From the NCBI RefSeq assembly GCF_017876435.1, contig NZ_JAGIOA010000001.1:372001-436000 (forward strand): a stretch of DNA of 64,000 nt, read 5' to 3'. Origin of the DNA: Microbacterium phyllosphaerae. GTDB taxonomy: Bacteria > Actinomycetota > Actinomycetes > Actinomycetales > Microbacteriaceae. Below, piece after piece: positions 520 to 52,331 of this stretch (within the stretch, counting starts at the first letter, position 1; every line of letters begins with the position of its first letter). Position numbers and translations under genes: made by a program. The notes beneath the pieces were generated by a model. The model did no database searches and was not told where the DNA came from. It saw only the letters and a program-made list of their open reading frames with translations.

Positions 520-867
520 TGGATCAACGTAGGGCTCAGCGCGGGAGGAACGCAAAAGACATCGCTGCCGTGGTGCCCGCCGGATGAGGCGGGACGGTGT
601 CCGTGTCGGTCAGCGCGGCCCTTGTCACTATGACCCGTCGGCTGAAGCTGATCCGGATCTGTCGCTGTTGACCCTGGTGAACACTGGAGACACGGAAACG
701 GCCCTGGTTACGAGATCGTCAAACTATGTGATCCGGTGCAGCAACCCCTGGACGCTAGGCATCGAAGCCCAGTACAGGCCCCGGATTTACGGAGCTTGAG
801 CCCTTGAATGTGGATGGAAGTATGCTCGTCGCACCCGCCAGGTGCCTCTCTCGGGCACTATGTGTCC
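520..867. other. 348-base gap with no intact gene
   Basis: This stretch contains the first copy of a 38-base repeat (712-749) and no convincing reading frame. It separates the MarR gene from the nuclease-like gene and probably holds the promoters of both. It looks like mobile-element debris. Confidence 0.5.
712..749. repeat. 38-base repeat, copy A (mate at 48809-48846)
   Basis: The 38 bases match 48809-48846 in the same orientation at 35 positions; the differences are at offsets 18, 30 and 33. Read on the minus strand, the core runs CTGCACCGGATCACATAG followed by TTTGACGATCTC. This layout (TTGCAC-like start, TTTGACGATC-like inner end) resembles terminal inverted repeats of IS30-family elements. 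That family assignment is from memory of the pattern, not a search. No transposase gene lies next to it, so it is either an insertion-sequence scar or a recombination site. Confidence 0.6.
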
Positions 868-24341: not shown

Positions 24342-25712
24342 TCAGCGTTGTCTTTCGGTGCGTCCGCTGGGTGCAAGGACGACCCATTCTTCGTCGTCAG
24401 CCGTCGGATCCTCGAAGCGACCTCCGACAACCCACGACTGGTCGCCATACTGCGCCACGATTCGTGAGGGCCGCCCCATCTCGAGAAGTTCCCCAACGGA
24501 CTTTGTGCGGCGCGTGTTCGCGTCCAGTGAGACCGCGGCGGGGTGGAGAATCCCCCGACGGGACTGGTCGAGAGCGTCGACCGCGAGATAGAGAGTCCCG
24601 GAAACGGTATCGAAAGTAGCGGAGGTGATCGCGCCGGCCTCGTGCTCACTCCATGCCACGATGACAGGGCGCTCGGGCAGTGCGCTCGACAGCGCCCGAG
24701 CGACGTCTGCGCTACGCGCTTCGAGTTCCGCTGCGACGAACTCCGCGACTCCAGCAACGTGTCGGATTCTGTCCTCCCGCACGCCGAGCGCTTTCAGATG
24801 AGAACGAACGTCCTCGGGGAAGGGGTTCACGATGACGATCTCCTGAGACCCCATCGGCAGCACGCTCCACAACATGCGGGCCATTGCGGCATCCGTCAAC
24901 GGCAGCGAATACCCCATGAGAACCACCCGATCCGCATCCTGCAGCGCCGCGCGCGCCTTGCGCCAGATATAACGCGTCTTGGGATTGTCGAAGTAGCCAC
25001 TCTTCGTCGACGTAGGCGGAACGAGAAAGACGTCCCGGCCCTCAATCGCCATTTCCCGCACACCTAGGTTCGCGAAGTCTGAGGTCGCGAATCGGTCGAG
25101 CGTCGCAGCGGAGCGGTCTCCCGATACGGCGAACCAGTCCACGGACCCGTGGAGCTTGTAGAGGGCGAATGTGTCACGCTCTTCGATGTGCCCGCGGCCG
25201 TCGTTGAACATCAGTGCTTTGCTGCTGGGGAAGCCCGCCACGACTGACCCGGCATGCACGCGCCCTTTTGTGTCCACACGGAGTTGTGCTTCCAAAGCGG
25301 TTTCGAGAAGCGTGTCGTAGTTGAAGGTAAGGATGTCGTCGCGCTGCCAATGCACCAGATCGACGAAGGTGTGAAGCCAGGACGGGAGCCCGTCTGCAAG
25401 GACCCCCTGCTCGAAGCCATCGAGTACCGTGGCGAGAGCATGCGTGAAGAGTGAATACAGGGCCAGATCTTCGTGGTGCTCGGCTTCCGACTGATAGGGC
25501 TGCTGTTCAGCCAGCCACGACATCCAAGTCTCAAAGGTGATCCCGCTCTGCGCGAAGTCCGGGACCTGAACGCTGCCCCTCAGACCAAGCTCTTCCGCGA
25601 CTGCCGCACCGAGTCGATCCGTCATCGGCATCAACTCGGACACCGCGTACGAAAAGCCCGCGCCGAGAACGTATGCGGTGCGGGAGCCGGCCGTGCGTGT
25701 CACCTGCATCAT
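24342..25712 (-). CDS. SIR2-like domain protein (putative NADase, defence type)
   Basis: I chose the ATG pair at 25712/25709, just before TAYVLGAGFSYAVSELMP, the NAD-binding opening of SIR2-like proteins. Further motifs are ILTFNYDTLLETAL and ALYKLHGSVDW, where the histidine would be the catalytic base. The SIR2-like part ends near residue 300 (RVVLMGYSLPLTDAAMARML). About 150 residues of unknown C-terminal domain follow. Proteins of this class (SIR2_2) deplete NAD upon phage sensing in several defence systems. No obligate partner is evident; the nearest genes are a small membrane protein (divergent) and DUF3892 (convergent). Confidence 0.85.
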   Translation of the reverse strand: MMQVTRTAGSRTAYVLGAGFSYAVSELMPMTDRLGAAVAEELGLRGSVQVPDFAQSGITFETWMSWLAEQQPYQSEAEHHEDLALYSLFTHALATVLDGFEQGVLADGLPSWLHTFVDLVHWQRDDILTFNYDTLLETALEAQLRVDTKGRVHAGSVVAGFPSSKALMFNDGRGHIEERDTFALYKLHGSVDWFAVSGDRSAATLDRFATSDFANLGVREMAIEGRDVFLVPPTSTKSGYFDNPKTRYIWRKARAALQDADRVVLMGYSLPLTDAAMARMLWSVLPMGSQEIVIVNPFPEDVRSHLKALGVREDRIRHVAGVAEFVAAELEARSADVARALSSALPERPVIVAWSEHEAGAITSATFDTVSGTLYLAVDALDQSRRGILHPAAVSLDANTRRTKSVGELLEMGRPSRIVAQYGDQSWVVGGRFEDPTADDEEWVVLAPSGRTERQR

Positions 25713-25847
25713 GCGACCATCATCGCGTACGCCACGTCCTGGGCGCCGCCTGAGGGGGCGAGCGACCGTCGGACGACGAAACTCGAGCGTCCACGCGTCA
25801 CCGTCGCCGCAGGGTAGAGGGCGTCCCCACTGAAGGAGAACAGCACC

Positions 25848-26180
25848 ATGCTGACCTGGATCACTCTCGCACTCTCGCTCATCACTGTCGTCGTGACTCG
25901 ACGCCACAGCACGGATCGGACGAACGTTCTCGTATCGTTCGCGTTCTTCCTGTTCATCATGAGCGGGCTCGCCGGTGTGCTGAACGCCTTCACTCCGATG
26001 TCCCCGCTCGAAAGCTCGGGGATCGTGACGCTCGGGATGATCTTCACGGCCGCCTGCATTCTCGCCGCGACGGTCAGCGCAGCTCTCGACCTACGAGGCG
26101 CCGTCGACGGGGATGGACTGCAGGTTCATCATCCACTCGGTGGCCAGGCCGCTGGAGAAGATGAGGGCGAACGCGGCTAG
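25848..26180 (+). CDS. Small membrane protein
   Basis: The ATG at 25848 has AAGGAG as ribosome site. The 110-residue product has a first helix (MLTWITLALSLITVVV), a second (VLVSFAFFLFIMSGLAGVL) and a third (IVTLGMIFTAACILAATV). The last 30 residues are hydrophilic and overlap, in the opposite direction, the end of the next membrane gene by 90 bases; the frame may therefore be longer than the original gene. It is divergent from the SIR2-like gene, with 135 bases between the starts, and could be its membrane partner, though nothing proves it. Confidence 0.6.
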   Translation: MLTWITLALSLITVVVTRRHSTDRTNVLVSFAFFLFIMSGLAGVLNAFTPMSPLESSGIVTLGMIFTAACILAATVSAALDLRGAVDGDGLQVHHPLGGQAAGEDEGERG

Positions 26181-31389: not shown

Positions 31390-31638
31390 TCAGACACTCA
31401 GCGCCGCCATCGGTGGTGTGCGCGCCGCTCTCGCCGCGGGGTACAAACCGGCGATCGCACCGATGGCGATAGTGCTCCCGACCGCTGCTCCGAAAAGCCC
31501 TGGCGGGATCGCGAAAGGCCACCCACTCAACAAGCCGACCACGAGCACGACCGCGGCGCGCAACACCGAGCCCATCACCCCACCCAACGCTGACAGCAGC
31601 AACGCTTCGGCGAGAAACTGGTGACGCACATTGTCCAC
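31390..31638 (-). pseudogene. C-terminal fragment of a MacB-type ABC permease
   Basis: About 78 residues (HQFLAEALLLSALGGVMGS to TPPMAALSV) match the C-terminus of the cassette 3 permease at 49287, including the ending GLYPAARAARTPP. The N-terminal 330 residues, the ATPase and the adaptor are missing. Similarity ends near 31625-31640. This is the remnant of another export cassette, perhaps the one that once belonged to the secreted protein at 27339. Confidence 0.8.
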
Positions 31639-31722
31639 TCGAGAGCGCGTGCGATGGAAGCTGCGGTGTAGCAGAGGCCGATGAACTGAACTTCGCCCAT
31701 GGGTTCGGCTGCTCGACTTCGG

Positions 31723-32754
31723 TCATGGACTGTCTTCCGATTCGTCCTCTGAGCTTTCTTCGGGGTGACGCGTGTGCCGTCGACGGACGTCTTCGATGAT
31801 TTCGTCGAGAGTGCGGTGACCGTCGATATAGTTCTGGGCGTCACGGAGAGCGTCGGGCGTCGGGGATAGCCCGTCCAGAGCCCACGAGTCCAGAGTTTGG
31901 GCCACCCTCTTCGCGCGCCGCTCGCGCTCGAGGTAGTTGTCCTCCCACCGGTCCGCGAGCCCGCGGATGATGCGCAGGTTCGGCGTCGCCATCCTCAAGG
32001 TGCGCATGTCGAGGAACCCGAGGTTTCCCTCCTGCCCTTCCCGGCCGAGGCTCGCCACTCGGCGGCCGTCTTCGGTCTTGCCGCCTCCAGGTGCGTGAAG
32101 GTGCCCGTGCACGAGAAGCTCGGGATGGACCGCGTCCCACACCTCGCCGATCCGTGCGCGGGATGCCGCAGACTCGGCCAGAACGACTTCCGGGAACCTG
32201 TGTGGGTTTGTCCGGAGGATCTCGCGGACAGGGCGGACGGGGGTGCCTGCCGGGGACTCATGGGTGAGCATCAGATCCGCGGGGCCGCCGGCGACGGCCT
32301 CGGCAACCATCCCCTCGCTCACGGCCTCATCGGGCCACCAGGTCAGTCCCTCGATGCGGGACTGACGGTCGACAGAAGCGGCGCCACCCAAGGACAGAAC
32401 CCGGCGACCACCGATGGTCAGGCGCGCAGGGCGCGGGAGCAGCCAGGTGAGGTCGGAAACCCGCACCGCGGCGCCGGGATGCTTGTTGAGTAGCGGGGTG
32501 ATCTCATCCCACGGCTCGTGGTTGCCGTTGGTCACGTAGATACGGGTGATGCCGGTCTCGGCGAAGATCTCGTCGATCTCCGCCGGCGGCATCCACCAGT
32601 CCCCCAGATGCAACATCGTCGTCACGTCGGGCGCGAGGGCTGGAAGCGCCCCCGCCACTATCCGCGCCCACCCAACACTGCCGTGCCAGTCGCCACAGAC
32701 GACGACGTGTTCGTCCGGCAGGACGATGTCCGATGCGTACTCAAGCGCCTTCAT
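31723..32754 (-). CDS. Metallophosphoesterase with VbhA-antitoxin-like C-terminus
   Basis: ATG at 32754 with GAGGAGGG five bases upstream. The 343-residue product shows the calcineurin-type motifs in order: GDWHGS, HLGDWW, NGNHE and, later, VHGHLHAPGG. It should be a two-metal phosphodiesterase or phosphatase. Residues about 270-325 then read RRAKRVAQTLDSWALDGL and PDALRDAQNYIDGHRTLDEI. This matches the VbhA antitoxin pattern (A-S-x-x-L-E-G-L-x-P-S, then Y-x-x-G-x-x-x-x-x-E), whose Glu blocks Fic AMP-transferases. Here that Glu is Asp. No Fic gene is in the window. The last residues are acidic. It lies 99 bases downstream of the HTH gene on the same strand. Confidence 0.88.
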   Translation of the reverse strand: MKALEYASDIVLPDEHVVVCGDWHGSVGWARIVAGALPALAPDVTTMLHLGDWWMPPAEIDEIFAETGITRIYVTNGNHEPWDEITPLLNKHPGAAVRVSDLTWLLPRPARLTIGGRRVLSLGGAASVDRQSRIEGLTWWPDEAVSEGMVAEAVAGGPADLMLTHESPAGTPVRPVREILRTNPHRFPEVVLAESAASRARIGEVWDAVHPELLVHGHLHAPGGGKTEDGRRVASLGREGQEGNLGFLDMRTLRMATPNLRIIRGLADRWEDNYLERERRAKRVAQTLDSWALDGLSPTPDALRDAQNYIDGHRTLDEIIEDVRRRHTRHPEESSEDESEDSP

Positions 32755-32793
32755 CAACCCTCCTCAGAAGAAGTGGTTGCATCTTAGCCGATT

Positions 32794-32853: not shown

Positions 32854-33297
32854 CTAGGGAGCGGCTGCGCGCTCCGCCCAGCGCTCCGCCTGCGCCTGCC
32901 GCTCCTTCATGCGATGAAACTCCCGCTCCATCGCTCGGACGTACTCGGCGGCCTCCCCGCGCATCATCCAATAGTCCAAGCGGGTTCCGACGAGCAGGCG
33001 GAGTCGGGCGAGGTCCACCATCTGCATGACTATCAGACCGCCGAGCATCTTCTGCAGGCGGTTGTACTCGATCTCCAACTCCGCCGCGAGGTCGGTGATC
33101 TTCGTCACGCGAGGCTTCTGCATGTACAGCTCTCGAACGCCGTACGAGATCTGATGCTGCGAGATGGACGCGTCGAGCTGCGCCTTCCGCTCAAGACTCC
33201 AGTCCTCCCCGATTCGCCACCATTCAGGGAACGGGCGTCGCCCGAAGTCCCGAGGCTCAATCAGGAAGTCTCTCGGCACATATCGCGGATCTGACAC
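32854..33297 (-). CDS. Putative HTH regulator divergent from the tns genes
   Basis: GTG start at 33297. The 147-residue product has a likely helix-turn-helix at residues about 65-95 (VTKITDLAAELEIEYNRLQ, then GGLIVMQMVDLARLRLLVG), where the pattern resembles XRE-type helices 2 and 3. The N-terminus is acidic and Trp/Pro-rich. The end is a charged helix (REFHRMKERQAQAERWAER). It is transcribed away from tnsA, and the palindrome at 33317-33330 lies between them. A regulator of transposition is the natural inference. The HTH call is by pattern, not a confirmed family. Confidence 0.65.
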   Translation of the reverse strand: MSDPRYVPRDFLIEPRDFGRRPFPEWWRIGEDWSLERKAQLDASISQHQISYGVRELYMQKPRVTKITDLAAELEIEYNRLQKMLGGLIVMQMVDLARLRLLVGTRLDYWMMRGEAAEYVRAMEREFHRMKERQAQAERWAERAAAP

Positions 33298-36182: not shown

Positions 36183-37232
36183 ATGTCCAACCCCAGCGGT
36201 CACTTCGACCAGCGCGAGCAGCTGCTCGAGCTCCTCGAATCTGTCAGTAACAACACCCCCACCCCCGTCAGCCTCAACGAGTACAAGTCATGGACGCGCG
36301 CCAAGCGGCGCGCATTTGATGAGGAGCGTAGCCGCCGCATCGCCGACTCCATCGTCATCATCACCCCAGCCCTCCAGCAGCTGAGGCTGGCCTACCGGCG
36401 CGCAGCGCGCGTCGCACACCGGCCGGTTGGACGGACCGGCATCATCCTCGACGGCGACCCCACGACCGGAAAGACCACCGCCGCCGTCTGGGTCATGGGC
36501 GAAGCCCACGCCCGCCACATCGACCGCCACCCGCGGTGGAAGGAGGACGGACACGTTTCCGTGGTGTACGTAGAAATTCCGCCGAACTGCACCGGAAAGA
36601 TGCTGATGGGACGCATCCTGAACTTCTTCGGTGCGCCGGTCGTGCCCCGTCAGACTTTGGAGGAGCGCACGCGGCTGGTCACCGACCTTTTCGCCAAGTC
36701 GCACACGTCTCTCGTGGTCTTCGACGAGATTCAGAACCTCGCGCAGTCGAACACCACGGGACGATTTGAAAGCGCACAGGCCATTAAGAACCTGATGAAC
36801 GCCGTCAAGGCCGTCCCCATGTACGTCGGCTTCGACCTGGATAACAGTCAGTTCACGAACGACGAACTCGGCGCCCAGTTCGCCTCCCGCTGCACCCCCG
36901 TGCACCTGGGCAAGCTCGACATCACCACCAGCGAGCGACGGCAGCTATGGGCAGGCGTCATCGTGGCCTTCGAGGAACAGCTCGGACTGTTGGCGCAACC
37001 GCCGCAGGCTCTGCTCGAACACGCCGCCTACCTGTGGACGCGGACGCGCGGCTCCATCGCCGCCCTATCCCGGCTCCTGACGACCGCGGCCCTGGACCTC
37101 ATCGAAGACGGAAACCCGGACGCCGAGCTCATCACGAAGGAGTTGCTTGCGAGCATCCCGCTCGACCTGACAAGCGAGCGTCTGCTCTCGGAGGCCAACG
37201 CCGTCGCCGAGGAGGCATCTCATGCTGCCTGA
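36183..37232 (+). CDS. tnsC: TnsC/TniB-like AAA+ ATPase
   Basis: RBS GAAAGG. The 349-residue product has Walker A GDPTTGKTT (K97) and Walker B VVFDEIQNL (D181, E182), the TnsC/TniB pattern. A likely sensor-1 region follows in MYVGFDLDNSQFTNDEL. Its size is nearer to TniB and small TnsC proteins than to Tn7 TnsC (555 residues), so accessory domains are absent. TnsC forms filaments on target DNA and passes the signal from TniQ to TnsAB. Its end overlaps the tniQ start by 11 bases. Confidence 0.93.
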   Translation: MSNPSGHFDQREQLLELLESVSNNTPTPVSLNEYKSWTRAKRRAFDEERSRRIADSIVIITPALQQLRLAYRRAARVAHRPVGRTGIILDGDPTTGKTTAAVWVMGEAHARHIDRHPRWKEDGHVSVVYVEIPPNCTGKMLMGRILNFFGAPVVPRQTLEERTRLVTDLFAKSHTSLVVFDEIQNLAQSNTTGRFESAQAIKNLMNAVKAVPMYVGFDLDNSQFTNDELGAQFASRCTPVHLGKLDITTSERRQLWAGVIVAFEEQLGLLAQPPQALLEHAAYLWTRTRGSIAALSRLLTTAALDLIEDGNPDAELITKELLASIPLDLTSERLLSEANAVAEEASHAA

Positions 37233-39330
37233 ACGCACCTGGCCATTCCCCGTCCGGCCCGGCTCGTTCGAGACGGTCGACAACTACCTTCGGCGCCTGC
37301 GCTCTGCAAACCTTGTTACCGACCTCACCTGGGGCGCGTGGGTGAAGCCCACCGTGCGCGCGACCGGCATGGCGCATGCCGAGGCGCTCGAGGTCATCGC
37401 TGAGTCCGCGGCTGGCCTGCGGCCCGGGCACTTCACTCGGAACCGCTCGTCGCTCCCCACCCACGCGGACGGCACCCCCTGCGTGAACTGCACCACCGGC
37501 CTCGATAACCGGTTCGGCTGCGTCAGGTGCACCCCGGGCGAGCGCATCGAGCAGATCCCGCACGACGGCCCGCGCGTCTGCCGGAAGCACATGATGTGGG
37601 TGGGGCCCGGTACCGCGCCCGAAGAGCAGTGCCGGGCCGGCGCGGACGCACTCCGAGCTGACCGACTATATCGACGGCTGCGCCGACGGGGCCTCCTGGA
37701 CTCTCATCGTCTTGCCGAGATTCTGGCGTGTGTGGACGACTGGGCGCAGACCTGCGCGGGCCCCGAGCGTCCGGCTGACCGCTTCGTCATCGCGATGCAC
37801 CTGGCTCGAGGAATCTTTCACCCTACGTCCCTCGACGCCTACGCCCTCCGGACAACCGCTGCGAGTGTCCGCTACTCCAGGCTCTCCTCGTACGTCACGG
37901 ACATCGTCGGCTCTGAAGACTGCATCGTGCTCATCGACGCCATCTGGCTCCTCGTCCGCGCTGCCGGGCATCAGGACCAGACAAACCCTCACTCCTTCAT
38001 CTGCACCGCGAAGCCAGAGAACGTCGACGAAAGAGCGGAATTGGAGCAGCTGCGTAGCTCCGCCTACCCGCGCGGCCGCCATCTCCACCTGACTCAGTAC
38101 GTCTCCTCTGCGGAAACCCGGTCGAAGTACGACAGCGCACGTCAACCGTCCAAGCGGTACAACTACATCTGCGCGTTCGGGCACTCGTTCATTCAAGTGC
38201 CGAATCAGCTGATGAAGGGCAAGACAGGTATGGGATGCGGAGTCTGTTCTAACCGCCGCCTGCTCCGCGGTTTCAACTCCCTTGCCGATACGGACGCCCA
38301 TCTCGTGTCCGAATGGCACCCCACGAAGAATGGTTCGCTGCGTCCCGAAGACGTAATGGCTGGGTCGGAGCGCTCAGTGTTCTGGCGGTGCCCGGAAGAG
38401 GGGCACGAGTACAAGATGCCGTTGTCCAAGCGTAAGAGGGGGTCCAGGTGCAGCTACTGCACGAGCAAGGCGGTTGCTCCCTCGGTCAACGCGTTCTCGC
38501 TCACTCACCCGGAGGCGGCCGCGTCCTGGCACCCTGAGCTCAACGGTGACCACACTCCGGAACAGTTTGTCGCGGGCTCCGCCCATATGGCCTGGTGGCG
38601 GTGCCCGGAGAAGGGCCATGACTATCAGGCGTCAATCCTGAACCGCGTCATTCACAATCGCCGCTGCGGATACTGCGCCCGGTCAAAGGCGCACCCCAGT
38701 ACGAACCTCGCGGTCACGCACCCCGACACCGCGTCACGCTGGCATCCGACGAGAAACGGCAACCTCACACCCGCCGACGTCCTCGCCGGGTCCAAGAAGA
38801 AGGTGTGGTGGCGGTGCGAGGCGCAAGGTCACCACTACCTCGCGCCGGTTCTCACCCAGGCTCGCGGCAATGGCTGCAACGTGTGCTCCGGACACGTCAT
38901 CGACGAGCAGAACTGTATGCGGACCACCAGGCCCGACTTCGCCCGTCAGTTCCATCCCGCCAAGAACGGCTCCCTCACCCCGGACAACACTCTCGCGACG
39001 GTGCGGCGCAGAGTCTGGTGGCGGTGCGAGGAACACGGCCACGAGTGGTGTGCCACCGGCTCAAACCGCGTCATCGGGCGGACCGGGTGCCCGTTCTGTT
39101 CAAACGCCAGAGTCTGGGTGGGCTGGAACGACATGGCGACCACACGACCCGACCTCGTTGTCGACTGGGACTGGGACAACAACACATTCACCCCGCAGAG
39201 CGTCGTCGCCGGCACGAAGAAGTCCATCCAGTGGAAGTGCTCGACATGCGGGTTCGGGTGGACCGCCCACGGTATGAAGCGTTCGAAGGGCGACGGGTGC
39301 CCGGCCTGCGCCAAGGCTCTCGACCACTAG
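37222..39330 (+). CDS. tniQ: TniQ/TnsD-like target selector fused to a zinc-ribbon array
   Basis: The 702-residue product starts like TniQ (TWPFPVRPGSFETVDNYLRR) and has the TniQ zinc knuckles C87-x-x-C90, C100-x-x-C103 and C120-x-x-H123 (GPRVCRKHMMW). From residue 310 to the end it carries one partial and about five full repeats of some 70 residues. Each reads W-H-P-x-x-N-G-x-x-x-P, then A-G-S, then W-R-C-x-x-x-G-H-x-Y, and closes with C-x-x-C. This is the DUF4379 (probable zinc-ribbon) pattern; the last unit is degenerate at WHP. TniQ proteins choose the insertion site. I infer that the ribbon array reads target DNA or a target-bound protein. A DUF4379 array on TniQ is not known to me. Confidence 0.9.
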   Translation: MLPERTWPFPVRPGSFETVDNYLRRLRSANLVTDLTWGAWVKPTVRATGMAHAEALEVIAESAAGLRPGHFTRNRSSLPTHADGTPCVNCTTGLDNRFGCVRCTPGERIEQIPHDGPRVCRKHMMWVGPGTAPEEQCRAGADALRADRLYRRLRRRGLLDSHRLAEILACVDDWAQTCAGPERPADRFVIAMHLARGIFHPTSLDAYALRTTAASVRYSRLSSYVTDIVGSEDCIVLIDAIWLLVRAAGHQDQTNPHSFICTAKPENVDERAELEQLRSSAYPRGRHLHLTQYVSSAETRSKYDSARQPSKRYNYICAFGHSFIQVPNQLMKGKTGMGCGVCSNRRLLRGFNSLADTDAHLVSEWHPTKNGSLRPEDVMAGSERSVFWRCPEEGHEYKMPLSKRKRGSRCSYCTSKAVAPSVNAFSLTHPEAAASWHPELNGDHTPEQFVAGSAHMAWWRCPEKGHDYQASILNRVIHNRRCGYCARSKAHPSTNLAVTHPDTASRWHPTRNGNLTPADVLAGSKKKVWWRCEAQGHHYLAPVLTQARGNGCNVCSGHVIDEQNCMRTTRPDFARQFHPAKNGSLTPDNTLATVRRRVWWRCEEHGHEWCATGSNRVIGRTGCPFCSNARVWVGWNDMATTRPDLVVDWDWDNNTFTPQSVVAGTKKSIQWKCSTCGFGWTAHGMKRSKGDGCPACAKALDH

Positions 39331-41846: not shown

Positions 41847-42274
41847 TCCCGGGCCAGGTGGAGTTGCGACCCCGGGCAGCCGACGGGCGCCGGCGGCCGC
41901 ACCTCTTGCGCTCGAGGCGCAACGTCTCAGGAACCGCTCGGGAACAGCGCGATCACCACCACCCCTTTGCCCGAAACGCGAACTCCTTACAGACAATCTC
42001 ACGCGTCGAGGTCCGGTCCACCACTTCTCCTCGGGTGGGGCCGACACCGCGATTGTCAGTAGTCGCCACAGCCGCCGTGGTTGAGACGCCCCGAAAGCCC
42101 AGAAAGACGCGGATCCGCAACATCTGTCAGGTCTTTCCTGTAGCGGCCAAAGGGGGTGAACGGTGTCCACCGAACGGGGGACAGACACCTGAAACGCCGC
42201 ATCTCACACTCAGAGGGAACCGAGGTGAACCTGATCAATAATGATCCAGGCCTCGCATCCCTTGAGGAGAGAAA
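41847..42274. other. 428-base region upstream of export cassette 2
   Basis: No convincing gene. The last 100 bases probably hold the promoter of the secreted-protein gene; AATAAT near 42237 lies about 40 bases before its ATG and could be part of a -10 element, with no clear -35. Confidence 0.4.
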
Positions 42275-42667
42275 ATGAAGTTGAGCACGAAGAAGCGCTT
42301 GGCGAAGTTCGCCGCCGCAACGGCCGTTTCGGCCGCTCTTATTGTCGCGCCGTCTGTGGCAGCGATGGCGGACGCGCAGGCGACCTACTCGTCCGGCGGG
42401 CAGCCGCGCGCGACCGGCTACTGGAACGCGTCCACGGACACGATCTCCAGCACAGACCGTTACAACGACGGGTGGGGCTCTCGCACGTGGTGGAACCTCC
42501 GCGGAAACACCTCCAGCAACAACATCGACAACACCAAGGGCGCCGGACAGACCGAGTCGCGACCTGTGTGGGTGCTGCCCGGCTGGGAGTTCCGGGTCCA
42601 GGCCTGCTCCATCAACAACGGCACGCAGCTCGGCTGCTCGTCCTGGTCGGGCTACTCCGGAGTTTGA
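42275..42667 (+). CDS. Small secreted protein, first gene of export cassette 2
   Basis: RBS GAGGAGAG before the ATG. The 130-residue product has a signal peptide (LAKFAAATAVSAALIVAP, cut after AMA near residue 32). The mature part of about 98 residues is rich in Trp, Ser, Asn and Gly (GWGSRTWWNLRGNTSSNN), with two cysteines near the end. It has no sequence likeness to the secreted protein of cassette 1 apart from size and the two cysteines. Aromatic secreted peptides next to MacB-type exporters are often antimicrobial or envelope-active, but that is inference here. Confidence 0.8.
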   Translation: MKLSTKKRLAKFAAATAVSAALIVAPSVAAMADAQATYSSGGQPRATGYWNASTDTISSTDRYNDGWGSRTWWNLRGNTSSNNIDNTKGAGQTESRPVWVLPGWEFRVQACSINNGTQLGCSSWSGYSGV

Positions 42668-42671
42668 CCCC

Positions 42672-42708
42672 ACGTGGGACCGGACGTGCGCTACGCCCGG
42701 TCCCACGT
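42672..42708 (+). terminator. 12-bp hairpin after the secreted-protein gene
   Basis: ACGTGGGACCGG pairs with CCGGTCCCACGT at 42697-42708 around a 13-base loop. A short TTT follows. It probably terminates part of the transcripts, so the secreted protein is made in excess of the transporter. Confidence 0.75.
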
Positions 42709-42745
42709 TTCATCATCACCACCAGAACAGGACCGCACAGTACCC

Positions 42746-43723
42746 ATGAAACGCCTCGCGCCCGCAGCGCCCATCGTCCTCACCGTCCTCCTCGTCACAG
42801 GTTGCTCAGGAGGGTCTTCGGCAGAGGAAGGATGGACGACGCCTGAGGTCCCGGCAGAGCTGTCCGCGTCGCAGGCCCTGGGCGCTTTGCCCTTCGATTC
42901 GTTCGCGATGGGGAACTCTGAGCGGGAGCAACTGCAACAGGGAACTGCCGAACTGCTGAATCGGTGCCTCTCGGATTACAACCTGTCCGCAACGTTCAGC
43001 GGCGACTACATCCAGCAGGTGAGCGAGGACCCGAAAGACCCCTTCATCTACCAGTGGGGCGGGAGGCTGGGAACCTTGCCGCTGGATCAAGCCAAGGAGT
43101 ACGGATATGCGGCCCCTCCCGGCGGCGACTGGTCCAATGGTGCCGGCATCTATCTGGCCAGCGCAGAGAATCTGAACCCCGTGATGCCCGATGACCCGAC
43201 TGAGGCCGCACAGCTTTCAGCCGCGATGTACGGGCCAGAACAGGGCATGATCCTCGGCGAAGGAGGAGCTGACGAAGCACTCTCCGAGGACCTTATTCCC
43301 ACCGACGGCTCGGGGAATCCGCCTCCGGAAAAGGGGTGTTACGGTGCGGTGGAAGACCAGGTAGGAGTGTCATTCGTAGACCTGCGCGACGTGACCTCCG
43401 ACATCTACGGCCTGGCGTTCAGCCACGACGCCGTGAAAGAGAAAGCACGCACGTGGTCGGCGTGCATGAAGGACGCCGGGTTCGACTACGCACGGTTCGA
43501 AGAGGCTCCCACCGCCAATGCAGGAGCTATCACCGCCGACACCATCGCGGCCGCCACGGCCGACGTGGAATGCACGAATGCCAGCCGTTGGACCGACACG
43601 TTCTACTTCGTCCTCGGCGACTACGAACAGCAGGCCATCGACAAGCAACCTGAGAAGTTCCAGTCCGCGCTCGACGCGGAACGTGAGCGCCTCGACGCGG
43701 TCAACACACTCTTGGGTGAATAG
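42746..43723 (+). CDS. Lipoprotein of export cassette 2
   Basis: The 325-residue product has a lipobox (VLLVTGCSGG) with the anchor cysteine near residue 17. The mature part is acidic, with the shared cassette motif TWSACMKDAGFDY and an earlier LNRCLSDYNL. It is longer than the lipoproteins of cassettes 1 (206) and 3 (176). The stop lies directly against the ATG of the adaptor gene. It probably acts outside the membrane with the adaptor, or protects the cell. Confidence 0.82.
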   Translation: MKRLAPAAPIVLTVLLVTGCSGGSSAEEGWTTPEVPAELSASQALGALPFDSFAMGNSEREQLQQGTAELLNRCLSDYNLSATFSGDYIQQVSEDPKDPFIYQWGGRLGTLPLDQAKEYGYAAPPGGDWSNGAGIYLASAENLNPVMPDDPTEAAQLSAAMYGPEQGMILGEGGADEALSEDLIPTDGSGNPPPEKGCYGAVEDQVGVSFVDLRDVTSDIYGLAFSHDAVKEKARTWSACMKDAGFDYARFEEAPTANAGAITADTIAAATADVECTNASRWTDTFYFVLGDYEQQAIDKQPEKFQSALDAERERLDAVNTLLGE

Positions 43724-44821
43724 ATGGCGACGAACGGAAGACCAGCGGCACGGATGACACCCACTCGCCGTGTGGGAGTCCTCCTGCTGGCGACCGCTCT
43801 CGTGTCGGCAGCCATCGGGGGCGCAGCCGGCTTCTTTGTGAGATCGCCCGCGCAAGTCGCTGCCGATGCGGCACCCCCGTCGCCCAGCGAGCTGACTGTT
43901 GCGGTCGAGGAGGGCACCATTGCGGATCCGATCCTGCTGCCTGGCGTCGTTGCTCTCGGTAGCGTCATAGAACTCACTCCGGCCGGCGCTGGCGTCGTGA
44001 CAGAGCTCCCCGTCGCCATTGGTGCGCAATTCAGCGCAGGCACGGTCATCGCAGAGGTGAACGACAGGCCCGTCATCTACCTGCAGGGAGCGATTCCGCT
44101 GCTGCGCGACCTGCGCCCGGGCGACAAGGGGCAGGATGTTCGCCGCCTCCAGGAAGCACTGCGTCCTTGGCTGAAAGGCGAGCCCGACGGGACGTGGGGT
44201 GCAGGTACAACCAACGCGCTACGCGCTCTCTACAAGGCCGTGGGGTACCAGGTTCCTGCGGAGAGCGCCGCTCTCCAGTCCGAGCTCGTCTTCGGTCCGG
44301 TCGCCACCGCGACGGCGCTCAGCATCAAATCCCCGCTCGGCGGTGGTGTCGAGAGCCCACTGATTCGAGCGACGACGTCTGATCCGACGGTGACCGCGGA
44401 AGTCACGGATGCGATGTCGCAGCTTCTCGCCGTCGGCGACCGCGTGTCTGTGACCGGGAGTGCCATTGGAGGCGCACAGGAGGGCACCATCACAGCGGTC
44501 GGCGGGCTGGTGTCAGGAGAGGATGGGATCAGCCGCGCCACGGTCGTCATCCAACCGGACGCCGCGCTGTCAGCGGGGGCAATCGACGGCAAGGTAGAGA
44601 TCACCGTTCAGGCCAGCGCGGAGGCCGAGACTGGCCTGCTCGTCCCGCTCTCCGCCGTTCGTTCGAATGCGACCGGTGGAACTTACGTGCTCATCAGGGA
44701 CGGAGACGATACCCACAGGGTGACGGTGACCGTCGACGACACGGGTGGCGGACAAGCCCGAGTGACCGCCAGCGAAGGGGACCTCGACGTCGGTGATCTG
44801 GTCGTCGTGGGCGTGCAATGA
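43724..44821 (+). CDS. MacA-like adaptor with peptidoglycan-binding domain, cassette 2
   Basis: The 365-residue product has an N-terminal membrane anchor (VGVLLLATALVSAAIGGAAG). A beta-rich stretch leads to a typical peptidoglycan-binding module (LRPGDKGQDVRRLQEAL, TWGAGTTNALRALYKAVGY) near residues 130-180. It ends in HlyD-like beta repeats (VPLSAVRSNATGGTYVLI). It overlaps the ATPase gene by ATGA. This three-part machine moves an unknown substrate across the membrane and wall. Confidence 0.85.
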   Translation: MATNGRPAARMTPTRRVGVLLLATALVSAAIGGAAGFFVRSPAQVAADAAPPSPSELTVAVEEGTIADPILLPGVVALGSVIELTPAGAGVVTELPVAIGAQFSAGTVIAEVNDRPVIYLQGAIPLLRDLRPGDKGQDVRRLQEALRPWLKGEPDGTWGAGTTNALRALYKAVGYQVPAESAALQSELVFGPVATATALSIKSPLGGGVESPLIRATTSDPTVTAEVTDAMSQLLAVGDRVSVTGSAIGGAQEGTITAVGGLVSGEDGISRATVVIQPDAALSAGAIDGKVEITVQASAEAETGLLVPLSAVRSNATGGTYVLIRDGDDTHRVTVTVDDTGGGQARVTASEGDLDVGDLVVVGVQ

Positions 44822-45492
44822 CGGCTGTCGTCGAGTTGCGTGAGGTGTCTCGTGTCTACGCTGGACCGCCCGAGGTGCACGCTCTAGCAACATCCTCGGT
44901 CACCATCGACGAGGGTGACTTTGTGACCATCGTGGGCCCATCCGGGTCAGGGAAGTCCACGCTGCTGAACATCTTGGGACTGCTCGACAAACCCACGGCG
45001 GGCACCTACACGCTAAGAGGTCAGGACGTCACGCTCCTCTCGGAGAACGACAGGGCGCGTGTACGAGGCACCGACATCGGATTCGTCTTCCAGTCTTTTC
45101 ACCTGCTTGAACAGCGCACATGCCTGGAGAACGTGATGCTCAGCGACCTGTACAACGGAACGTCTGAGCGTGAATCTCGTAGTCGGGCGTCGGAGGCCCT
45201 GGAAGCGGTGGGTCTCGGTTCGTTCGAACGTCGGCTACCCACAGAGCTATCCGGTGGACAACAACAGCGAGTCGCCATCGCCAGAGCGTTGGCCGCCAAT
45301 CCCGCGGTGCTTCTGTGCGATGAGCCAACAGGAAACCTCGACAGCGTCACGGCCAACGCCATTCTCGCGTTGTTCGACGAGCTCAACGATGCGGGGCGAA
45401 CCGTCGTGCTGATCACGCACGACGCTGAGGTCGCACGTTACGGGAACCGAACACTACACATGCTCGACGGCACGCTAGGTGAGAAGTCGTGA
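44818..45492 (+). CDS. ABC transporter ATPase, MacB type, cassette 2
   Basis: The 224-residue product has Walker A GPSGSGKST, Q-loop IGFVFQSFHLLE, signature LSGGQQQR, Walker B VLLCDEPTGNLD and the switch histidine in ITHDAEV. LLDKPTAGTY and GNLD are typical of the LolD/MacB branch. It is closer to the cassette 3 ATPase than to that of cassette 1. It overlaps the permease by GTGA. Confidence 0.94.
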   Translation: MTAVVELREVSRVYAGPPEVHALATSSVTIDEGDFVTIVGPSGSGKSTLLNILGLLDKPTAGTYTLRGQDVTLLSENDRARVRGTDIGFVFQSFHLLEQRTCLENVMLSDLYNGTSERESRSRASEALEAVGLGSFERRLPTELSGGQQQRVAIARALAANPAVLLCDEPTGNLDSVTANAILALFDELNDAGRTVVLITHDAEVARYGNRTLHMLDGTLGEKS

Positions 45493-46673
45493 GCGGCCGT
45501 CCCGTGCGTCGGAGGCTGCTGAACGAGGCGATGGCCGGCGTCGTGCAGCGCTCGTCTCGGTCCGGGATGACGATTGTCGGAATCGCCATCGGTGTCGCAT
45601 CCTTCGTTGCAGTTCTCGGTGTCACCGCCAGCGCGAACGGTCAGATCAGTGACGAGTTCCTGAAGGTGGAAGCCACACAGATCACTGTGACACCGCGCAG
45701 CGGCGGAACAGGCACTGAGCTTCTCTTCGCCGCAGACGCGGACAGCCGCGTGTCCCAGATCGACGGTGTCACCGCGACCGGACGCTGGTGGAACGTCCCG
45801 GGCGTCACCGTCAGCGTGAATCCGCCCTCCATCGACCCAGGATCATCGCAACCTCCCCTATTGGCGGTAACGCCCGGCTACTTCGATCTCGTGGGCGCGG
45901 ATGTCTCGAGCGGTCGCACGTTCGATGACTTCCATCAAGACCAACCCGTCGCCGTCATCGGAGAGAAGCTCGCCGGCGACCTCGGCATCGACAACGTCGC
46001 CGACCAACCCGTGGTCGTGCTCAACAACCTTCGAGTCACCGTCATCGGAGTTGTTGACAACACGACCGGCTCTAGTGCCGCCCTGACGAGCGTCATCATC
46101 CCGGCGGGGTTCGCCCGCGAGCACTTCACCGCCCCAGGGCAGCGGGAGACGATGGTCGTTGCCACCGAGGTGGGAGCATCGACGGTGGTCGCCGACCAAC
46201 TCGCTGTGGCCTTGAACCCTGCGGAACTCACCGCGTACCAGATTGTTCCGCCGCCGAAGCCGACGGTCGTCAAGGACAGGGTGAACGGATCCACCCAGGC
46301 GCTTTTCTTCGCGCTAGCGGGAATCTGCGTACTCGTCAGTGGCGTCGGAATCGCGAATGTCTCCCTACTGGGGGTCATCGCTCGCACCCGCGAGATCGCC
46401 CTTCGACGCTCACTCGGCGCCCTACCGAGACACATCGCGATCCAGTTCTTGGGCGAGTCGGCCGTGCGCGGGCTACTCGGTGGCTTGGTCGGAACGGCCC
46501 TGGCGATGGCCGCAGTGACTGTCATCGCGTTGAGCCAACAGTGGACAGCGGTCATAGAGCCATGGTCACTCGTCGCTGGGCCAGTGATGGGCGTGGCTAT
46601 CGGGTCTATCGCCGGGTTGTATCCAGCGATCCGCGCTACGAAGATCGAACCCGTTGAAGCGTTCCGCCGGTGA
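45489..46673 (+). CDS. MacB/FtsX-type permease, cassette 2
   Basis: GTG start overlapping the ATPase stop. The 394-residue product has one N-terminal helix (GMTIVGIAIGVASFVAVLGV), a MacB-type extracellular domain, and three C-terminal helices (LFFALAGICVLVSGVGIAN; GLLGGLVGTALAMAAVTVIA; a last one ending SIAGLYPAIRATKIEP). The GxxIANVxLxxxxxRxxEIxLRRSLGA stretch is diagnostic of MacB/FtsX permeases. It closes the cassette; no terminator was found behind it. Confidence 0.93.
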   Translation: MSGRPVRRRLLNEAMAGVVQRSSRSGMTIVGIAIGVASFVAVLGVTASANGQISDEFLKVEATQITVTPRSGGTGTELLFAADADSRVSQIDGVTATGRWWNVPGVTVSVNPPSIDPGSSQPPLLAVTPGYFDLVGADVSSGRTFDDFHQDQPVAVIGEKLAGDLGIDNVADQPVVVLNNLRVTVIGVVDNTTGSSAALTSVIIPAGFAREHFTAPGQRETMVVATEVGASTVVADQLAVALNPAELTAYQIVPPPKPTVVKDRVNGSTQALFFALAGICVLVSGVGIANVSLLGVIARTREIALRRSLGALPRHIAIQFLGESAVRGLLGGLVGTALAMAAVTVIALSQQWTAVIEPWSLVAGPVMGVAIGSIAGLYPAIRATKIEPVEAFRR

Positions 46674-46772
46674 ATCCCGGGTGCATCTGAAATAGGACTT
46701 GTGACGGAATCGTGTTTGGTTCTAAACTCATAGCGTCAGCTGGGTGACATAATCTGATGAGATGGGGACGGC

Positions 46773-47489
46773 ATGGATGCAAGTATCGGTGACAGCGCAT
46801 GGTTTCAGCAGCGTTTTGGGGACGCAGGACCGGCGGTAGCGAAAGCACTTATCCGAGCGGGCCACGAGGCGCATAACCGCTCGAGCGACACGAAGGCCGC
46901 GAGCGGACTGACAACCGACGAAGCGTACGGCGCGACGTTCTGGCAGGTGCTCGCCATCGACCTCGTCGAGCAGCTCTCGAGCGCCCAAGGGATCCGCGCC
47001 CTCAAGCCGAAGGGTGCTCGGCATCCACTGCCCATCGTCAACGGCACCACCATCCATGCCGTCAAATGTGCATCCAGGTCTGGATCCCGTCACGATCAGC
47101 TGAAGATCCGCTGGTCGCAGTTCCGCGACGACTCGATGTCGCAGGTCGCACGCGTCACCGGTGACGTCCTCCCGCTCGCTGAGTGGCTAGACGAGGAAGA
47201 GGACGAAGGCATCGCCGCCCCCGCCTCCGCGGACGAGAGCGTCGTGCTCGCCGCGTTCGTCGCATCCGCCAGCGGTGGGTTGGAACGGATCTACATCGGT
47301 GACGGTTACATTGACCGCAACGACGATGTGTACTGGGTGCACTACGAAGAAATCCCTGTGCGCCTTGGCGCCGGCGAGCTGACCAGCACCGTCTCCGTCG
47401 TCGCGGAACGCTTCGACTCGGCCCCCGGCTCCGTCGACATCGACATGGGCCTGGTCCGCCGACCTGAAGAAGAAGAGGGAGCCGAGTGA
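46773..47489 (+). CDS. Partner protein of the XRE-ImmA gene
   Basis: The 238-residue product has no domain I recognise. The N-terminal part includes FWQVLAIDLVEQLSSAQGI and PIVNGTTIHAVKCASRSG, the latter looking like the core of a nuclease or ligand-binding alpha/beta fold. An acidic linker (WLDEEEDEGIAAP) and a beta-rich end follow. It overlaps the XRE-ImmA gene by ATGA. Such pairs resemble toxin-antitoxin units in which an ImmA/IrrE protease with an XRE head controls its partner. A CATAAT element near 46748 could be the promoter -10. Confidence 0.75.
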   Translation: MDASIGDSAWFQQRFGDAGPAVAKALIRAGHEAHNRSSDTKAASGLTTDEAYGATFWQVLAIDLVEQLSSAQGIRALKPKGARHPLPIVNGTTIHAVKCASRSGSRHDQLKIRWSQFRDDSMSQVARVTGDVLPLAEWLDEEEDEGIAAPASADESVVLAAFVASASGGLERIYIGDGYIDRNDDVYWVHYEEIPVRLGAGELTSTVSVVAERFDSAPGSVDIDMGLVRRPEEEEGAE

Positions 47490-48625
47490 AACCGCTGAGC
47501 CCGACCGGTCCCACCGCGAGCGCTGAGGCAGTCGCTGCAGCGTTTGATGCCGGACGTCTGCGCCAAGCACGTCAGCTGGCGTTGAAGACGAAGCAGGACG
47601 TTGCGGCCGCTATCGGCGTCTCCCCCGCAGCCGTTGGCCAATACGAGTCGGGATCGTTTGCCCCGAGACCGGAACACATCGAGAAACTCGCCACGTTCCT
47701 GCGCGTCCCAGTCGGCTACTTCGCTGCCGGACGACCACAGGCGCGACTGGAATCCGCTGGCGTCTTCTTCCGAAGCCTGCGGGCGACAGCCGCAAAGCAA
47801 CGAAATAAGGCCATCTCCTACGCGGAGCACGTGTGGGAACTGGCGAACGCTCTGGAAAGCCACGTTCGCTTCCCTCCGGTCGACATCCCTGGTTTCGCAG
47901 GCGGCGAGATTGCACCCGGCACCTTCTCCACTGACCCAGCGACGGCCGCCCAGCAGCTGCGTGCCGCATGGTCGCTGGGCGATGGCCCCATCCCCCAGAT
48001 GCTGCGACTTGTGGAAGCGAAAGGGATCATCACCGTGCTCGTGCCCATGGTGGAAACCGAGGTCGCGCGCATCGATGCGTTCTCGACGACCTCGCTCGGG
48101 CGCCCCCTCATGATCCTGTCCCCCGACCGCGCTGACGACGTGTACCGCCACCGGTTCAGCATCGCTCATGAGCTCGGGCACATCATCCTCCACGGAGGAC
48201 GCACCTCAGGCACCCTCGATCTGGAACGGGAAGCAGACCGATTCGCGGCGGAGTTCCTCACCCCGGCCCGCATGCTGGATGCGGAACTCGAGTCCCGACT
48301 CGACATGAACCATGTCCTGACCATGAGTAACCGCTGGGGAGTGCAGCCAAGCTCCATCGTGCTGCGCAGCCGTGAACTCGGGAAGATCTCCGAAGCCTCA
48401 GCACGTCGCGGCTACATCCGCCTGCATCAGATGGCGGTAACCGTCGAACCGGTCGCGAAGTTCCCTGGCGAACAGCCCCTCCTACTGTCCCGCGCCGTTG
48501 AGCTTGCCAGCGAGGTCGGCATCACCATCCCAACGCTTGCCGCAGAACTCGCCTGGACCCCCGCTCACCTACGGCTGATGCTGGGCGAGTCAGACACTCG
48601 CCCGCAGCTCTCCATCGTTCCGTGA
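47486..48625 (+). CDS. XRE-family regulator fused to an ImmA/IrrE metallopeptidase
   Basis: The 379-residue product has an XRE helix-turn-helix at residues about 30-80 (LALKTKQDVAAAIGVSPAAV, YESGSFAPRPEHIEKLATFL). It then has an ImmA/IrrE domain with H228-E-L-G-H232 in SIAHELGHIILHGG and a downstream acidic ligand in EREADRFAAEFLTP. These proteins cut repressors or antitoxins after DNA damage or infection and often sit on mobile elements. The partner is the gene directly upstream. The C-terminal 100 residues form another helical region that may sense the trigger. Confidence 0.92.
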   Translation: MKPLSPTGPTASAEAVAAAFDAGRLRQARQLALKTKQDVAAAIGVSPAAVGQYESGSFAPRPEHIEKLATFLRVPVGYFAAGRPQARLESAGVFFRSLRATAAKQRNKAISYAEHVWELANALESHVRFPPVDIPGFAGGEIAPGTFSTDPATAAQQLRAAWSLGDGPIPQMLRLVEAKGIITVLVPMVETEVARIDAFSTTSLGRPLMILSPDRADDVYRHRFSIAHELGHIILHGGRTSGTLDLEREADRFAAEFLTPARMLDAELESRLDMNHVLTMSNRWGVQPSSIVLRSRELGKISEASARRGYIRLHQMAVTVEPVAKFPGEQPLLLSRAVELASEVGITIPTLAAELAWTPAHLRLMLGESDTRPQLSIVP

Positions 48626-48647
48626 TGCGAGGCACACAGCCTCGTCC

Positions 48648-48809
48648 TCAGCGCGAGTAGAGCGACGTGTCCAAGGTCGATTCAAGACTCCAAATCGTGT
48701 GGAAATCGGCCCATGATTGCCCCGACAGGATCTTGCGGATCGTCCCCTCGTCGACGCCCGCATCCCGAGCCAGGCAAACACTGAGGTCGCCGAAAAACCC
48801 AGCCAGTTG
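48648..48809 (-). pseudogene. C-terminal fragment of a small HTH-type regulator
   Basis: On the minus strand the frame reads GDLSVCLARDAGVDEGTIRK and ILSGQSWADFHTIWSLESTL, and stops at 48648. The piece ARDAGVDEGTIRKILSGQSWAD is a typical XRE/Cro recognition region plus loop. The frame begins exactly at the 38-base repeat, with a stop codon inside the repeat, so the gene has lost its N-terminus to whatever event placed the repeat. Confidence 0.6.
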
Positions 48810-48846
48810 AGATCGTCAAACTATGCGATCCGGTGCAACAGCCCCT
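48809..48846. repeat. 38-base repeat, copy B (mate at 712-749)
   Basis: 35 of 38 bases match copy A in the same orientation. Its left border coincides with the break in the HTH-type gene remnant. On the minus strand it reads CTGTTGCACCGGATCGCATA, then GTTTGACGATCTC, IS30-end-like as in copy A. Confidence 0.6.
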
Positions 48847-49238
48847 TTAACTGTGGGCCCTCCGCCCGATTGCCGGCCCCTCGGCGACGGAGTTCGTTTC
48901 AGCAACTTTCGGGCGTCCGGGCTATGACTCGCGTGCGTCAATCTCCATTGAGGGGGCTTCGGCGCCGGAACCTCAACGACGCCGCGGCCACCGTCGATGC
49001 TTCCTCTCCCTCCCGTTAGACACAACCGCTGCAGCGGCCGCGGGGAAGATCATCTCGTGCATTCGGTCCCAGTGACGTCCACGCCATGCGTCGAACAGAT
49101 CCAGCGTGGAAATGACGGGGTGCTCCAATGACCGGACAAACTCCGTCGTGCTCGTCGTCGCCGGGATCGCGATTGCTGTCACGACTCGTCGCCGGAACGA
49201 GAACACCGCCACAGATTTCTAACAACGGACACATCGAT

Positions 49239-49282
49239 GGCCTGGCGCCCGCAGCCGATTGTTCGACTGCGGGCGCCAGGCC
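49239..49282. terminator. 16-bp hairpin after cassette 3
   Basis: GGCCTGGCGCCCGCAG (49239-49254) pairs perfectly with 49267-49282 around a 12-base loop. It lies five bases after the permease stop (minus strand), so it is the operon terminator or 3' stabiliser. Confidence 0.8.
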
Positions 49283-49286
49283 TCTC

Positions 49287-50519
49287 TTAGATGCTCAAGG
49301 CTGCGGTCGGCGGAGTCCGCGCCGCACGGGCAGCCGGGTACAGCCCAGCGATGGCCCCGATGGCGAGAGTGCTTCCCACGGCCGCGCCGAACAACTCAGG
49401 TGGCACCGCGAACGGCCATCCGTTCAAAGCGCCGACAGAGAGAACGACGATGACCCCCAGGAGCGAGCCCATCACGCCGCCAAGAGCGGAGAGCAGCAGC
49501 GCCTCCGCAAGGAACTGCGCACGGATGTGTGCCCTCGTTGCACCCAGCGCCCGCCGCAACCCAATCTCGCGTCGCCGTTCGAGGACCGAGATGATCATGG
49601 TGTTCGCGACACCGATACCGCCGACTAGCAATGCGATTGAGCCGAGGCCGACGAGAAGTCCCGTGAAAGCCTGATCTACAGCGGACTTCGCGGCGAGTGC
49701 ATCGGATGGCCGGGACACCGCCACTTCCTCCGGCGCCTGCGGATTGACAGTCGCAGGGAGCAGTTCGCGGACCTGCTCGATGAGATCCTCCGCAACCCGC
49801 TGGTAGACCGTCGAGGGGCTTCCATCCCATTCGAACTCGGAGCGCGCGATCCCTTCGCCGACGAGGGCGCTCAGATCGAGCTCGGGCGCCAATGCGGAAG
49901 GTTCCAGAATACCGACGACCGCGAAGTACTGCCCGCCCATCCACACGTTGGTCCCGATGGTGTGCACGCCGAGGTGGCCTGCAGCCGTCGCCCCCAATAC
50001 GACCGCTGGGAACTGCCCTGTCGATGCGTTCAGCCATGCTCCGCTGGCGACTCTTGTCGCCGTCACATCGAGCAGATCGAGGTCGGCGGTGAGCACCGTG
50101 ATGCCACCGGTTGCGGACTCATTGATGAGTTCGCTGCGGTATACGTTGGCGGAGAGCTTCGCGGTACCGCTGGCGCCTTCCGCGCCGAGCATCTGCCGGG
50201 CTTTTCCGATGGTGCTCTCAGGGAGCTTTGTGTCCTCCCCGAGCATGCCGGTGTTCGCCTCGGCGGTGAGCAGGTTCGTTCCCAGCGCCTCCAGCTGAGT
50301 GTTCAACTGCGCTTGACTGGACGTGGAGATGCCCACCACAGCAATCATCGCAGCGATTCCGATGGCGATACCGAGCGCGGACAGCACTGCCCGCAGAGGC
50401 CGGGTTCGCAGCCCGACACCGCCGAGCTGCAGTATGTCGGCGGCGCGCAGCTTGGATCGCAGACGCGCCCCCGCGGGCGCGTCTGTGGAGTCGATGATCT
50501 CCTCGTGTTCTGTTGTCAT
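49287..50519 (-). CDS. MacB/FtsX-type permease, cassette 3
   Basis: The 410-residue product has a short cytoplasmic head and a first helix (AVLSALGIAIGIAAMIAVVG), then a MacB periplasmic-type domain (LEALGTNLLTAEANTGMLG). Three helices follow, with the family stretch GGIGVANTMIISVLERRREI and the end AIAGLYPAARAARTPP. The fragment at 31390 is a close copy of its C-terminus. Its start overlaps the ATPase stop by ATGA. It is the last gene of a four-gene minus-strand operon. Confidence 0.94.
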   Translation of the reverse strand: MTTEHEEIIDSTDAPAGARLRSKLRAADILQLGGVGLRTRPLRAVLSALGIAIGIAAMIAVVGISTSSQAQLNTQLEALGTNLLTAEANTGMLGEDTKLPESTIGKARQMLGAEGASGTAKLSANVYRSELINESATGGITVLTADLDLLDVTATRVASGAWLNASTGQFPAVVLGATAAGHLGVHTIGTNVWMGGQYFAVVGILEPSALAPELDLSALVGEGIARSEFEWDGSPSTVYQRVAEDLIEQVRELLPATVNPQAPEEVAVSRPSDALAAKSAVDQAFTGLLVGLGSIALLVGGIGVANTMIISVLERRREIGLRRALGATRAHIRAQFLAEALLLSALGGVMGSLLGVIVVLSVGALNGWPFAVPPELFGAAVGSTLAIGAIAGLYPAARAARTPPTAALSI

Positions 50520-52317: not shown

Positions 52318-52331
52318 CGTGCGCCGGCCTT

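Follow-up and report, generated by a model that had tools for sequence, protein, structure and literature searches.

How does a Tn7-like transposon find its insertion site when its presumed target selector ends in an array of zinc ribbons? The question is raised by a stretch of 64,000 nucleotides of the Microbacterium phyllosphaerae genome (contig NZ_JAGIOA010000001.1, positions 372,001 to 436,000), called here the window, in which the gene following tnsA, tnsB and tnsC encodes a protein with a TniQ-like core fused to repeated DUF4379 units. Our analysis indicates, with a probability of about 0.7, that this protein selects fixed target sites for a Tn7-like transposon, doing the job of TnsD, with the core and the array reading the site. 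The features are collected in Table 1; G and L numbers are our handles for genomes and loci.

The fusion itself had been proposed from the letters of the DNA alone, and it was borne out. Pfam DUF4379 (PF14311) matches the selector in its C-terminal half at E=1.8e-78 (259.1 bits, cut-off 24.5) in five stretches, and a hidden Markov model (HMM) made from the protein's own units finds six, which start at residues 292, 358, 429, 500, 570 and 642. The first unit is divergent, in agreement with the one partial and about five full repeats of the original prediction. Chance is excluded for the array because of this E-value and because the same architecture, with two to seven units, is present in 40 of 44 TniQ proteins, one per locus, from related elements. 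These 44 came mainly from the strongest profile matches and are not a random sample; the weaker matches that were left out were mostly frames below 520 aa, and L157 and L158, which gave no TniQ match, were also left out. The four proteins lacking an array are those of L018, L148, L159 and L128, the last being cut by its contig.

The assignment of the N-terminal half to TniQ was upheld as homology between profiles and not as a direct match. PF06527 (TniQ) gave no match at E<=1 with the whole protein or with residues 1-310, and a six-frame TniQ search without a match is uninformative, its controls having given none either. A profile of seven selector-type N-termini (one of them, L018, core-only) retrieved short actinobacterial TniQs, of which six were scanned with PF06527, three passing its cut-off (1.7e-9, 1.5e-6 and 2.5e-6) and three failing it. 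The profile of five array-bearing N-termini was then compared by hhalign with that of five short TniQs (three passing PF06527, one below the cut-off and one without a PF06527 scan), giving 98.0% and E=1.9e-13. The motif C100-x2-C103 / C120-x2-H123 is invariant in 20/20 aligned proteins. A predicted structure gives modest matches to solved TniQ chains over residues ~4-140, and a first model (7 sequences, predicted local distance difference test score 63) had given no useful structural match. From these comparisons the selector is read as a remote TniQ homologue and not as a member of PF06527; we use this wording because the curated cut-off of that family is not reached. Similarly, the selector is said to work like TnsD rather than to be TnsD, because the C-terminal family of TnsD (PF15978) is absent among the Pfam families at E<=1 for the protein.

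The genes tnsA, tnsB, tnsC and the selector follow one another in this order in a compact operon, and a single operon that encodes TnsA, TnsB, TnsC and a TniQ-type protein is the mark of a Tn7-like element. The prediction of a TniQ-type protein with a zinc-ribbon C-terminal half in the selector position of such an element was supported. TnsB also matches an IS481-like core at 1.2e-17, yet below the cut-off of that family.

The operon lies in the middle of a transposon of 68,874 bp (68.9 kb; G000:C1:372,629-441,502), whose left end is at window position 629 and whose right end is 5.5 kb past the window edge. The right end was reached through the small gene that adjoins the ends in G013 and G375, a copy of which lies ~5 kb beyond the window. 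The two ends agree, in inverted orientation, at 9 of their first 11 bases and contain several transposase-type sites; in the left end one GAAGNTGATCC-type copy is clear, further loose copies being seen only by eye. GTCAC followed by a terminal match of at least 9/11 occurs once in the 45.5 kb searched, as against 0.0 on average in 300 base shuffles; the 9/11 limit was chosen only after the match had been seen. GTCAC also precedes the left-end sequence TATGACCCGTC... at window 629, and the right-end sequence TATGAGACGTCCC... starts 1 nt past a stop codon, that of a 2-oxoacid dehydrogenase E2 gene (E2 by Pfam), which is a core gene matched in 99/99 genomes. Among 29 other genomes whose E2 flanks were read (the best matches among 98), the E2 stop adjoins, in 20, sequence that is found left of the window in the source genome, near 359.9 kb (11 genomes), 353.5 kb (8) or 355.3 kb (1); the other nine gave no match. 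Foreign DNA thus parts E2 from its usual neighbourhood. The 12.8 kb to the left of window 629, from the usual neighbour gene of E2 to the transposon (G000:C1 359.9-372.6 kb), may be an older insertion. Searches for ends confined to the window had yielded nothing convincing; ends beginning with TGT were sought, and the true ends begin with TAT, one of them lying outside.

In the genus, the N-terminal profile matches at E<=1e-5 in 66 of 366 Microbacterium genomes. A scan of the genome contigs with a single selector N-terminus found nothing, and another scan, of named genomes, returned two loci, both in Microbacterium. TnsB and TnsC are matched in all 46 loci and TnsA in all except L128 and L130, which are at contig ends. 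Similarity of the Tns proteins divides the loci into groups A, B and C, the window belonging to C, and a diverged set D. Two genomes have a second array-bearing TniQ gene on the tnsA side (L013 17586-19301 in G013; L038 15065-16807 in G375) and thus have dual selectors, both of the TniQ-array type. The operon selector of G375 (L038 8687-10603) appears, by eye, to end in a winged-helix-like segment after its ribbons.

The elements of groups A and B share one address. The group B loci, 15 in the genus, have a common flank of ~1.4 kb that carries an AHSA1/SRPBCC gene (Pfam) and a small helix-turn-helix gene that we take to be ArsR-like (PF12840); this arsR operon is core, being matched in 74/79 genomes. 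The element starts 51-52 bp from AACCATTTGG, which in our reading is half of an operator-like palindrome in the putative promoter/operator before the arsR-like gene, in 12 of the 14 loci with upstream sequence (L017, L129, L132, L133, L134, L137-L141, L037 and L135, the last counted by hand). The fifteenth locus, L130, has no upstream sequence and is unscorable; in L134 the end is 3.4 kb away from tnsA. The same 51-52 bp position was found in 8/8 group A genomes tested (a ninth, G640, with a contig of 3.3 kb, is outside this count), where each genome has a single strong copy of a different type of end that faces tns; in seven of them it is 17.6-40.6 kb away from the selector gene, and in G001 a contig break intervenes. 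By eye, five of these ends agree throughout their 95 bp, and the arsR operons of their hosts are 82-87% identical to one reference. Identical ends beside diverged flanks argue for repeated insertion, and shared ancestry of the position is therefore disfavoured for group A. ACA-ended, repeat-bearing sequences were also seen by eye at or near the arsR position in further genomes, in L168, L170, L173, L176, L179, L180, L185, L188 and L189.

In group C the addresses located are 3′ ends of genes. Like the window element, its relatives with a located site lie just past stop codons: in G013 and G375 the stop codon of one acyl-CoA dehydrogenase gene, the same in both, is followed after 12-14 nt by the element, and those of G653 and L073 (the latter without nearby tns) start 5-6 nt past the stop codon of one gene, whose C-terminus we take to be that of a ribonucleotide reductase. 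The relatives home to fixed chromosomal addresses which differ between clades. Unrelated insertion sites, which would have weakened the targeting idea of the original prediction, were not what the comparison gave, since the arsR elements are at one position and four group C elements are past stop codons.

The single arsR position is occupied by elements whose selectors have two units (L017, L129), four (L141), five (L140), six (L132, L133, L134, L135, L137, L138, L139) or seven (L037 and group A). The number of units therefore does not set the address. It had been suggested that equal ribbons could read a long target module by module. Taken as one ribbon for each DNA stretch, with unit number matched to site length, the idea is in keeping with the repetition of similar units and with the different addresses of the clades. 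In this form it is rejected, because unit number varies while the position relative to the arsR palindrome stays fixed, and we consider it very improbable. The address must reside in the core and the proximal units, or elsewhere. In the two-unit protein the core and units 1-2 align best with the core and units 1-2 of longer proteins, with one off-diagonal tie (L017 unit 2 ties with L037 unit 6).

On these grounds the selector would work as follows. The TniQ core would engage TnsC, and the array together with the core would bind a specific attachment sequence, replacing the C-terminal helix-turn-helix domains of TnsD; TnsC would then place TnsA/TnsB for insertion at a fixed distance with a 5-bp duplication. 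The addresses would be clade-specific: the region before the arsR-like gene for groups A and B and, for the located members of group C, the 3′ end of the acyl-CoA dehydrogenase, the 2-oxoacid dehydrogenase E2 (window) or the ribonucleotide-reductase-like gene. For homing to arsR in groups A and B, the core and units 1 and 2 would be enough, the distal units being variable additions. Architecture, gene order, the ends and duplication of the window transposon, the fixed positions and the varying unit number are observations. That this protein, and no other factor, reads the site, that core and array contact DNA, and that TnsC bridges to insertion by TnsAB is what we infer from the general biology of Tn7.

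Another element protein, either the small end-adjacent gene or the 147-aa gene, could instead pick the site, with the TniQ fusion merely recruiting TnsC. The small gene, which appears helix-turn-helix-like by eye, does lie beside the transposon end in G013, G375 and G653 and in the source genome of the window; against this, searches at E<=1e-4 gave no match to it among the loci of groups A and B, Pfam gave none at E<=1e-5, and this explanation is judged improbable. A partial copy of the small gene is present at window 48651-48800 (-).

Several observations weigh against site reading by core and array. The best solved fold matches of the array are chains of mitoribosome structures, which suits contact with RNA or protein, and the occurrence of two to seven units at one address makes most of the array dispensable for that address. 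A somewhat less improbable alternative than the preceding one is that the ribbons do not read DNA and instead bind a partner, while the core, or a host or element protein or RNA, reads the site. We find it doubtful, as no Rfam family reaches the gathering threshold in the window, no ribbon-less protein was seen at the arsR site, and at least two units are kept in every arsR-homing protein examined. An RNA guide, named in the original prediction, is likewise not supported by the Rfam result and the fixed addresses, and it keeps some place because of the mitoribosome matches. Further points against concern the addresses. Among the scorable group B loci there are two exceptions, L136, with its element at 66 bp, and L131, where it is inside arsR. 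In eight arsR flanks with ACA-ended sequences (20 kb long in seven cases, 1.9 kb in one) a tnsA trace was found in two and a DUF4379 open reading frame (ORF) in none, and so other selectors may use the arsR site. Sites are known for 4/8 group C loci (the others being L142, L143, L145 and L146) and for no group D locus. Both ends are determined for the window element only, the tie between tns and end elsewhere being one of distance and orientation. The window ends both begin with TAT and those found in relatives with TGT, and, relative to tns, the attachment-side end of the window element is found towards the selector, that of the elements of G013, G375, G653 and groups A and B towards tnsA.

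Beyond the target selector of a single transposon, it is possible, and we offer it tentatively, that TniQ-DUF4379 proteins form a separate class of protein-guided selectors. Here the core and a few proximal ribbons would encode the address, clades would re-address themselves (arsR promoter, E2, acyl-CoA dehydrogenase, ribonucleotide-reductase-like gene) by change and shuffling of ribbons, and the distal units would add affinity or bind RNA or protein, giving re-addressable, CRISPR-free integration.

Table 1. Features of the transposon and its selector in window coordinates (position 1 is the first nucleotide of the window)
Feature	Position	Strand	Basis or remark
Left copy of 5-bp target-site duplication GTCAC	624..628	.	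followed by terminal match
Transposon left end, TATGACCCGTCGGCTGAAGCTGATCC...	629..740	+	GAAGNTGATCC-type repeat at position 16
625-aa protein just inside left transposon end	808-2685	+	no Pfam match at E<=1e-5
Calcineurin-like phosphoesterase, VbhA-like C-terminus, recurrent passenger	31723..32757	-	PF00149 3.9e-8, PF18495 8.9e-9
147-aa protein, divergent from tnsA	32854..33297	-	homologues at same place in G013, G375, L142, L145
tnsA, TnsA-like endonuclease, 250 aa	33388..34140	+	NCBIfam NF033179 1.5e-42, 145.5 bits against cut-off 110
tnsB, transposase, 663 aa	34168..36159	+	PF09299 Mu-transpos_C 1.7e-11, over its cut-off
tnsC, AAA+ regulator, 349 aa	36183..37232	+	PF05621 TniB 6.7e-19, PF13401 4.4e-13
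TniQ-type selector ORF	37222-39330	+	702 aa, ATG start; 11-bp overlap with tnsC end
TniQ-like core, residues 1-290	37222..38091	+	helices at N-terminus, then CxxC/CxxH zinc finger and second helical part
Six-unit DUF4379 zinc-ribbon array, residues 292-702, unit 1 divergent	38095..39330	+	Pfam and own-unit HMM
Other transposon end, TATGAGACGTCCCTGAAGG...	69502 (beyond window)		GAAGNTGATCC-type copies at 36, 55, 74
Right GTCAC copy	69503-69507 (L093 5503-5507; beyond window)		

The neighbouring genes gave several leads which were not sustained. The phosphoesterase was rejected as the attachment gene, as its homologues vary in orientation and in distance and also occur where no tns genes are near; Pfam and NCBIfam searches with the 147-aa protein gave no match. 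A conserved, TTGGCA-rich stretch close to the tns genes of G013 and G375 was rejected as a transposon end; it occurs in 8/99 genomes, and tns queries had no match in seven loci around it. This TTGGCA-repeat segment of ~190 bp is found at L013 16435-16710, L038 19347-19600 and in L068-L074, with long matches 71-79% identical, and in L071 a tyrosine recombinase gene lies no more than 10 kb from it. A macB C-terminal fragment at 31390-31671 (-) is unsupported as an interrupted target; apart from the full query gene, nothing else of similar identity occurs in the window.

Among the remaining genes of the window, 24342-25907 (-) encodes a SIR2-like protein (PF13289 5.8e-7, PADLOC SIR2 8.2e-8), a possible defence cargo. 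The region 42275-52368 has a lactococcin-972-like gene (by eye) with ABC/MacB-like genes, and the block 42125-46674 is 78% identical to a block in G002 and therefore occurs apart from the window element. Beside related selectors there are an ApeA-like gene (L013 7784-9082), a type I restriction-modification system recognised by eye (L075 13657-20005), and genes for very large proteins, 47% identical to each other, at L038 327-7382 (G375) and L018 2707-9618 (G005).

No description of a TniQ-DUF4379 fusion was found in the literature searched, which covered few subscription papers, in line with the original prediction. According to PMC8649781, where PF06527 was among the models used for finding the elements, an Actinobacteria-dominated clade of Tn7-like transposons has no experimentally characterised member. 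The main text of PMC10293859 does not contain the words "ribbon", "treble" or "Actinobacteria"; it describes a common core of TniQ and TnsD, helix-turn-helix domains as the tails of TnsD, and zinc fingers in TnsF. The choice of site is central to the biology and the use of Tn7-like elements, and here a selector of new domain make-up, overlooked by the Pfam TniQ model, is present in elements that home to precise addresses. One address with two to seven units, and different addresses within one clade, are natural replicates which make target reading by a TniQ-type protein directly testable. DUF4379 gains a candidate function, and protein-guided integration systems may be available in actinobacteria.

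Compared with known systems, the selector resembles TnsD of Tn7 in being a single large TniQ-related protein in a tnsABC operon. Tn7 with TnsD inserts just past a gene 3′ end at attTn7 (glmS) with a 5-bp duplication (see also the abstract of PMC2918618), as is also the case for insertion just past a gene in the window, G013, G375 and G653 and for the 5-bp duplication of the window element. In contrast to TnsD, groups A and B home before a gene and the addresses are other genes. The C-terminal half here consists of DUF4379 ribbons, whereas that of TnsD has helix-turn-helix domains (PMC10293859). Unlike the TniQ of CRISPR-associated transposons (ShTniQ, PseCAST TniQ), the protein has a long C-terminal array and no PF06527 match; no CRISPR array or Cas gene was noticed in the element, of which 5.5 kb lie beyond the window, and no dedicated search was made. 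Other DUF4379 proteins belong to the same Pfam family and show no TniQ core in their matches: the plasmid-record matches to the selector start at residue 277 or later and cover the array only (20 listed of 69). A link of several zinc fingers to TniQ is shared with TnsF of Tn6022, including one TnsF N-terminus fused to TniQ (SCZ64694), as given in PMC10293859. TnsF, however, combines a LIM-like zinc-finger region with an inactive tyrosine recombinase part, and its target is comM, whereas the present selector is one protein with DUF4379 ribbons.

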